From: Citrus sinensis
Taxonomy: Eukaryota > Streptophyta > Magnoliopsida > Sapindales > Rutaceae
NCBI RefSeq assembly: GCF_022201045.2
Contig: NC_068558.1
Coordinates: forward strand, 50,819,501 to 50,883,500
Length of the DNA: 64,000 nucleotides
Reading direction: 5' to 3'
The position numbers and the translations under genes were made by a program. The number at the start of each line of letters is the position of its first letter. Position 1 is the first letter of the stretch. Below the pieces are notes generated by a model that saw nothing but the letters and a program-made list of their open reading frames with translations, did no database searches and was not told the DNA's origin. Below, piece by piece: positions 15,401-18,400 of the stretch.

Positions 15401-18400
15401 TGCTACTTGGTTTACTTTTTAAATTTCATGTTTTACTGATCTTTTGTGTATCATTTGAAGAAGAGTAATGCTAGGGATCCTAACATTTGAAGTCCCAACT
15501 GATGTGGCATTCATTTATTGGATGATAGAATAGAGTAATTAGTAATTTTATATTCATCATCCAATAGATGAGTGACACATAGCATTGGGACTTGAATGTT
15601 GGAATTCCTAACATTATTGTTTGATATATATTTTCATGTTCCTTATATGCCCCTTTTGTATGGTTTAGAGAACTGAAATGTCTTATTTTCAGAATGTCAG
15701 TTCTTTAGGTGAATTGTGTGGAAGGAATGTATTGTTTGGATTCTGTATCCTGAAAACATATTAATGGCTTGCATTTATTATTCTGATGCAATCAGTTAAA
15801 ATGTCTTCTTTTCCTCTGCTTATTTTCAGGATCTTCTGATTTTAGCTTGCAGTCATCCAGAAAATAGAAATAGTCTGACTATGATGGAGGAATGGCCCGA
15901 GTGGATTCTAGAGATTCTTATCTCTAACTATGAGGTAATCTCAGTGAAATTTTCTCTCTCTCTCACTCTCTCAACATGTTATCTTCACATGTTTTATTTT
16001 AGGTTGCATGGGTGAGGTTTAGTTAGATTATGAACTTTCTTGAATTTAATATCAGGTAAAAATTTTTATGCACACGAGCTCCCTGTCATGCATACTTTTA
16101 AATCTATTGCTTGTTATTGTAGATGGGTGCAAGTAAACAGTCTAGTTCACCAAGCTTGGGGGACATAGAGGACCTTATACACAACTTTCTCATAATCATG
16201 CTGGAACATTCAATGCGTCAAAAGGATGGATGGAAGGTTTATGTCTTTCCTTATTCTATTCACTTTGTTTATTACTTTTCCTCAAATAATATCAATCTTG
16301 AATCCTTCATAGAATTGTAAGATTTATCGTTCTTTTATACCCTATGGCAATAATTTTAAATGGACGCGTCTGTTTGCTATAGTTTCTTGCACATTCATCC
16401 TTGATCTCTGCTTTAGGTTGATTGCTTAACTGAATATTGTCTAACATTGAATCGACTCTAAACTGTTGAACTTGAAACAAACTCCTCTAATTTCTATAAA
16501 TTAGTGTTGGTTTAGTTCAAAGTGCCAAGTTAGAAATCCCACAAGTCAAGAGAAGTTGTAGAATATCACTCAGAGGTAAGCTCAACTTTCATTCTAACAC
16601 ATCTAAACATTTGAGGTTATACAGATATGTGCTGAGTGACTAGAACATCACATGCACCAAAGCACTAACCTGTTTAATGATTGTTACTTGTTTCCCAGTT
16701 TCAAAGTTAGATGAGGTGTTAGCTTGCAAACAGATGTGCATGTTCTGACGAATATGTTTTTATTTGCGATTATTTGAAAATGATGGGCCAAGTTGAATTT
16801 CTTGTTTGCATTGTTAAAGCTGTTGCTTCTGATAATACCAAAATGTTTAAGCTTAGGCATCTTAGTTTTTAAAAGGTGTTTATCTAAATTCTGTTTAACA
16901 TGTTCTCATAACCATGAAACTATATCCTATACTGCCAGTTATCTAAACAAAGGCTGGCAATCCAAATACACATGGTTAACTCACTTTATAGTCAAGGAAA
17001 AAGTGAAACAAGTACAACTTAGAAAATCAAAAAAACCATGAGATGGAAATATATCGAAAATAGACAGTTAGTGAATAGCATAGTTTTAAAATATTTAGGC
17101 AGAATGTTGAGTCTTGCATACAAACTCTTTTAACATTGCTTGTCAATGAAGAGTCACTAGTTTGTCTTGTATTCCAAGTTGATTTAGTCACCAGCCAAGC
17201 ACGACAACAGTGGAAGAAGTGGCAATATAATTGAAGATAGAAGGTATAATGGATGTCTTTCTCAAAAATGGTAGGGATGGTACTTGTTGATGAAAATATG
17301 ATTGAAACTCATGGTTCATGTGCCATAATAGTTCCCATTCTTCTACCCTTCCAGGGGAGTTGATGATTATTCATTGCTATTACCTTGACACCAAAGAAGA
17401 GTTCGACTTAATGCTTTATTTCTGTCCTAATTGACCCTAATTTGACATTAGAAGTATATTGATTTTTTCCCAATTTTTTCCCAATTACCGAATACGTTTG
17501 TATGTAAACTGCATATTTGATTCCGTCCATAAATCTATTTTCTTCCCTATGAGTTCAAGTCTCAATATGAATGCTAGTTCTTACTATTCATTTGTCATGA
17601 TATGAATGTACCACACCAATTCATTATGCATAGATGATGAGATTCCATTGATCTAAAGCCAATTCCAATAGACTTATTGGAGGGGCCCATTGACGTGCGT
17701 CCAGTAGGAGTTGAACCTACGAATTCGCCAATTATGGGCCACGGATGCTTAGGGGAAATCCCTTACATGGAGAATAACCAAATTTCAATTGAAATGAAAT
17801 CTTTAGGATAAATCTATGCAATTTAGGTGGAATCAATGAAAGGACACCAATTCAAATCCTGGATTTTTGAATTGAGAGAGATAAAAAATTCTGTATAGAC
17901 GTACAATAACAACAAAACAAAAAGTCCCTTGGTGCGAGTCAATCATAACCAGAAGAAGAAAGAAACCAAAAGTTATAGGTGGGGACATCATTGCCGGGGC
18001 TTAGTGGAGGATGCTTATGTAAATCAAGTAAAGAGGATTCAAGAGGATACACGTAACTGCCCTCATTTTGTACTGATTTGAGTCTGAGTTCAGTTGTGTT
18101 TATTATGGTAAAATTGCATGTGGATTTCAACTACCTTACTAGTTTGTTTGTGATTGGTCTTGCCTTTTAATCTAGCTGTATTAGTTTTATTTATTGTTTG
18201 TATTTTATTTCCCTTCTACAGGATATTGAAGCCACAATTCATTGTGCAGAATGGCTTTCTATTGTGGGTGGATCTAGCACTGGAGAACAACGCACTAGGT
18301 ATTATTGTCATATGCTACTGGCCAGCTTCCTGAAAGTTCCCCCTCGTTATTTAATTTGGTTGCTTCATCATAGTATATTTCAATTTGTTTCACGAACTTT

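Follow-up and report, generated by a model that had tools for sequence, protein, structure and literature searches.

How a run of plastid genes came to lie inside an intron of a nuclear gene is the question raised by this locus. The window analyzed is a stretch of 64,000 nucleotides from Citrus sinensis (contig NC_068558.1, positions 50,819,501 to 50,883,500), and the original prediction had placed remnants of rpl23, trnI-CAU and ycf2 at positions 17323–17893, within intron 6 of a BEACH gene. That location is confirmed, and the boundaries shift slightly, to 17318–17892 (575 bp), when they are set by homology to another genomic copy, on contig C2. The sequence at this site is almost certainly a nuclear plastid DNA insertion (NUPT) in an intron of a BEACH-family gene. 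The features are as follows.

9468–29913, plus strand: predicted coding span of a BEACH-family (neurobeachin-like) gene, from the gene model built here.
16237–18221, plus strand: predicted intron 6, 1985 bp, the host of the insert, flanked by predicted exons at 16123–16236 and 18222–18298.
17318–17892, no single strand: the plastid-derived insert, from local alignment to the C2 copy.
17318–17530, minus strand: 5' part of rpl23, corresponding to about 68 codons of the original reading frame and cut short at the left junction (alignment and profiles).
17340–17354, plus strand: acceptor-like pyrimidine tract and CAG derived from antisense rpl23, the next base being 17355; a candidate cryptic acceptor.
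17408–17410, minus strand: stop codon TAA in the main frame of rpl23.
17463–17473 and 17474–17484, minus strand: the two units of an 11-bp tandem duplication in rpl23.
17507–17508, minus strand: position at which rpl23 has lost 2 bp by comparison with the four other copies covering it.
17696–17748, minus strand: trnI-CAU remnant (Rfam tRNA score 21.5 bits, gathering score 29; RF04354 alignment).
17695–17748, plus strand: match to the Rfam family Plastid-ycf2 5'UTR, antisense of the tRNA (53.9 bits, E 1.4e-10, gathering score 65.7).
17836–17892, plus strand: start of ycf2, the first 19 codons as they stand, cut at the right junction and with one 12-bp (LREI) unit missing.

The host gene was modeled by dynamic programming with codon usage taken from the open reading frames of the window and simple splice matrices, and its structure is predicted only. 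The model has 31 exons and 2945 residues (30–31 exons, about 2,940 aa). Its product contains DUF4704, NBCH_WD40, Beach (E 1e-117) and PH_BEACH domains, with DUF1088 below the cut-off, and this domain content supports an assignment to the BEACH family, which stops at the family level. The host intron is number 6, as originally proposed, once a doubtful predicted 9-bp exon is left out of the model, an omission that leaves the reading frame intact. The gene model agrees with the earlier view that, at 1,985 bases, it is the longest predicted intron of the gene, the runner-up being 897 bp. The intron without the insert would still measure 1410 bp and remain the longest predicted, so the insert is not the sole reason for its length. 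The GC content of the insert is 35%, close to the 33–36% of the remaining intron sequence. Relative to the host gene, rpl23 and trnI-CAU are antisense and ycf2 is sense.

The rpl23 part opens with a minus-strand ATG at 17530 and falls into two pieces. The second piece matches the NCBIfam L23 family at model positions 48–78 (E 5.8e-4, 19.8 bits, cut-off 122) and Pfam L23 with E 0.079; the first piece matches no Pfam or NCBIfam family, and neither piece found a match in PDB. Stops and a small duplication had been predicted here. One stop, the TAA, is found in the main frame rather than several, and the duplication is borne out as the 11-bp tandem at 17463–17484, which is absent from all four other copies covering the site. 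The 2-bp deletion is damage beyond that listed previously. Together, the deletion and the duplication add a net 9 bp, and thus the frame returns.

The trnI-CAU remnant lacks 21 bp, corresponding to 21 positions of the Rfam model; the missing part is the D arm along with most of the anticodon stem on its 5' side. The alignment to the C2 copy shows the same gap, in agreement with the predicted loss of the D arm. ARAGORN calls no tRNA in the window, and calls one with the anticodon CAT in the C2 copy. At curated Rfam thresholds the whole window gives no match. The complete cloverleaf of a functional plastid tRNA gene in the nucleus is missing, and a tRNA gene in use was rejected on the grounds that the remnant is broken and antisense to the host gene.

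The ycf2 part begins with an ATG at 17836 on the plus strand. Over residues 1–17 it shares 16 identities with the Ycf2 chain 8xku_D of a solved structure (E 1.6e-5), and it matches Pfam Ycf2 with E 1.2e-5 (23.3 bits, cut-off 29.2). Two 12-bp units are present in the least decayed copy (L014) and in the solved Ycf2 (REILREI, REIVREI). A single unit is present in four of the five copies spanning the site, counted among eight places of one search: the window (17868–17892), L009, L010 and L013. The loss of the unit would reflect either repeated contraction or a shared non-plastid source.

These identities come from Rfam, PDB, Pfam and NCBIfam, and each match is short, those to curated profiles being below the cut-off. 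The plastid identity is accepted because the short matches combine with the gene order and with the other nuclear copies. The genes, rpl23 (minus), trnI-CAU (minus) and ycf2 (plus), stand in plastid order. The claim of three plastid gene ends in plastid order and orientation is upheld by Rfam, the Ycf2 chain, Pfam, NCBIfam and the other copies. Contiguous, ordered genes of plastid derivation point to a nuclear plastid DNA insertion. The contig carrying the insert is 52.3 Mb long, with nuclear sequence on both sides of the insert within one gene, and the stop, frameshift and indels indicate relaxed constraint. C11 is the plastid contig, as judged from plastid-type tRNAs and Rfam elements, and C10 is taken to be mitochondrial from its size, GC content and a trnI-like match. 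Since both are separate from the contig of the insert, the copy in the window is not the organelle itself. The searchable parts of C11 gave no match to the insert, the stretch expected to carry the donor interval reading N.

The assembly searched comprises 300 Mb in 11 contigs, and the numbers of places found in it are lower bounds. With 17323–17893 as the query, at least 15 places were found including the window itself, that is, at least 14 others matching parts of the insert. The best of these, on C2, covers bases 1–570 of 571 with 82% identity (E 2.6e-168). Nine regions holding 10 of the 14 other places were extracted and compared by local alignment. Homology between 16000–19500 and the nine loci is confined to 17315–17892. 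The left end of homology is 17318 by the C2 copy and 17315 by L016. The right end is 17892, where the window stops and the C2 copy, L013 and L014 run on into ycf2. The C2 copy extends beyond both ends of the insert, rightward into more ycf2 and leftward into sequence recurring in other loci; by eye, this leftward extension looks like the rest of rpl23 followed by the beginning of rpl2, and two short pieces of the supposed rpl2 matched no Pfam or NCBIfam profile. The flanking intron stretches 16238–17322 and 17890–18222 have no other match in the searchable genome, very common words being skipped by the search, and the idea that the remaining intron is plastid or repeat DNA was rejected on this result. 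The plastid DNA was also sought in PLSDB plasmids, in IMG/VR (by patterns) and in GTDB genome contigs, and nothing matched; one pattern used on both IMG/VR and GTDB matched six places in the Citrus genome itself, all on C1, C2, C4, C7 and C8.

Several other short matches were seen in the window. A second predicted intron of the BEACH gene holds a 52-bp match to the plastid contig (83%, E 1.6e-7) at 20266–20317; the reversed window, used as a control, gave no match. At 55772–55852, an 81-bp stretch (88%) matches the plastid contig near trnS-GCU and equally the mitochondrion-like contig, as well as two further places on C4. A 43-bp plastid match (93%) at 49195–49237 is bordered on each side by a stretch of a dispersed nuclear repeat, and may be a tiny plastid piece captured inside a repeat copy; this is tentative because a single weaker match, on C6 (71%), runs across it. 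At 18761–18858, in a later predicted intron of the BEACH gene, a short dispersed repeat has 29 genome matches including itself, the others at 74–87%. By eye it resembles a tRNA-derived SINE, and Rfam found no tRNA in it.

The decay of the insert was measured against the majority consensus of up to 10 other nuclear copies, which is not the donor plastid and may be biased as a reference; tRNA-deletion columns were omitted and non-homologous ends were masked by eye. The insert differs at 43 of 530 sites (p 0.081), with 29 transitions and 14 transversions. On a stricter set of sites, at which at least two other copies are unanimous, 27 of 389 differ. By the same measure, the other ten aligned copies range from 0/110 (L014) and 0/79 (L017) up to 83/465 (L010), and the insert is the fourth most diverged of the eleven. 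The stop, the indels and the substitutions relative to the consensus support the proposal that the insertion is old. The molecular clock proposed for the locus is not supported beyond a relative age, the consensus reference being possibly biased. With nuclear rates of 2–7e-9 per site per year, a Jukes–Cantor (JC) distance of 0.086 would correspond, very roughly, to 12–43 million years, which is not claimed as an absolute age and which the consensus reference can inflate through C-to-T changes shared by the other copies.

Among the transitions of the insert, 12 are C>T/G>A and 17 are T>C/A>G. The C-to-T excess, usual in young NUPTs though not a defining trait, is therefore not seen, which counts against the NUPT reading. 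In the eight other copies with transitions, the pooled counts are 90 against 45 in the C-to-T direction (Fisher p 0.019 versus the insert). Taken singly, L010 (p 0.0006) and L009 (p 0.031) alone differ from the insert at p<0.05, the other six having p>0.2. L010, which is more diverged than the insert, keeps the C-to-T excess (48 versus 12), and L016 is similar to the insert (10 versus 14). C-to-T changes shared by the copies forming the consensus may make the insert look reversed. For Arabidopsis NUPTs, PMC6376042 gives a ratio of T/A>C/G to C/G>T/A of 0.26 in young insertions and 1.21 in old ones, the C-to-T excess of young NUPTs being lost in old ones. The ratio in the insert is 17/12, to be set beside the 1.21 of the old class.

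The most probable origin can be outlined as follows. A plastid fragment with one end near codon 68 of rpl23, the other within the opening codons of ycf2 and trnI-CAU between them would have been joined into a chromosomal break inside the BEACH-family intron. A review (PMC7037861) discusses such a route, in which organelle fragments are joined into the nucleus at double-strand breaks. Comparison of 45 + 50 bases at the junctions revealed no clear target-site duplication, the longest shared word being 5 bp, which fits end joining. The insert is presumably spliced out with the intron, so that the host gene would be little harmed, and it has probably drifted as neutral sequence, gathering point changes, small deletions and the small duplication. 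No function was seen for it.

Transfer by way of the mitochondrion, in which the plastid piece would have entered mitochondrial DNA and then the nucleus, is improbable. It could explain why the 12-bp ycf2 unit is missing in four of five spanning copies, as expected from a shared non-plastid source, the share of the window in this evidence depending on the final dozen bases of the insert; moreover, plastid-like DNA is present in C10, and two short matches between the window and C11 also match C10. However, an exact 12-bp tandem repeat can contract repeatedly and independently, the C2 copy searched against the whole assembly meets C10 over the tRNA alone (78%), and no rpl23 or ycf2 was found in the searchable part of C10, the presumed mitochondrial contig. 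Plastid DNA that passed through mitochondria would be expected to have the same gene order as the insert, whereas the mitochondrion-like C10 shows a trnI match alone.

Two further origins concern whether the insert is an independent transfer and whether it is real. That it is a duplicate of another NUPT within the nucleus is highly unlikely: the ycf2 contraction is common to three other copies, as a duplication could produce, but the nine loci share nothing outside the insert and its flanks match nowhere else searched. The nearest long copy is only 82% identical and continues past both ends of the insert, and the C2 copy was rejected as a duplicate of the window locus for want of any shared flank. 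An assembly or library chimera, in favor of which nothing was found, can be practically dismissed. It should match the plastid almost perfectly, whereas the insert carries several indels besides its stop, differs from the consensus by substitutions at about 8% of sites, and lies in an intron with predicted flanking exons that join in frame; with 43 of 530 sites differing from the consensus, a fresh contaminant or chimera is strongly disfavored.

An effect of the insert on splicing was also considered. The acceptor-like site at 17355, the best in the insert, scores 2.9 on a crude matrix, against 3.3 for the real acceptor, and the best scores elsewhere in the intron are 2.1 in the left part and 0.4 in the right part. 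An exon starting at 17355 and read in the host frame would run for two codons before a stop. Occasional use of the site might yield a poison exon through which plastid DNA would tune the level of the BEACH protein, which is very unlikely.

NUPTs in introns are common and published, and the insert is a real, ordinary example. It adds to the plastid insertions whose decay allows them to be ranked; with the genomes of relatives, its presence or absence would mark a lineage cleanly, and it shows that organelle DNA in an intron is tolerated by a large conserved gene. This locus was not found in the literature on NUPTs with introns, trnI-CAU/rpl23/ycf2, Citrus, and presence/absence, which was covered mostly at the level of titles. 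NUPT-derived exons were reportedly described by Noutsos et al. in 2007, as known through a review. As far as that account goes, the insert likewise places plastid DNA inside a gene and brings an acceptor-like site, but its candidate exon would end almost at once at the stop noted above. The closest likeness is to known intronic NUPTs, with which the insert shares colinear plastid genes, decay and junctions where no target-site duplication is seen. Nothing of note sets it apart from them, and its missing C-to-T excess fits the old NUPTs of PMC6376042.
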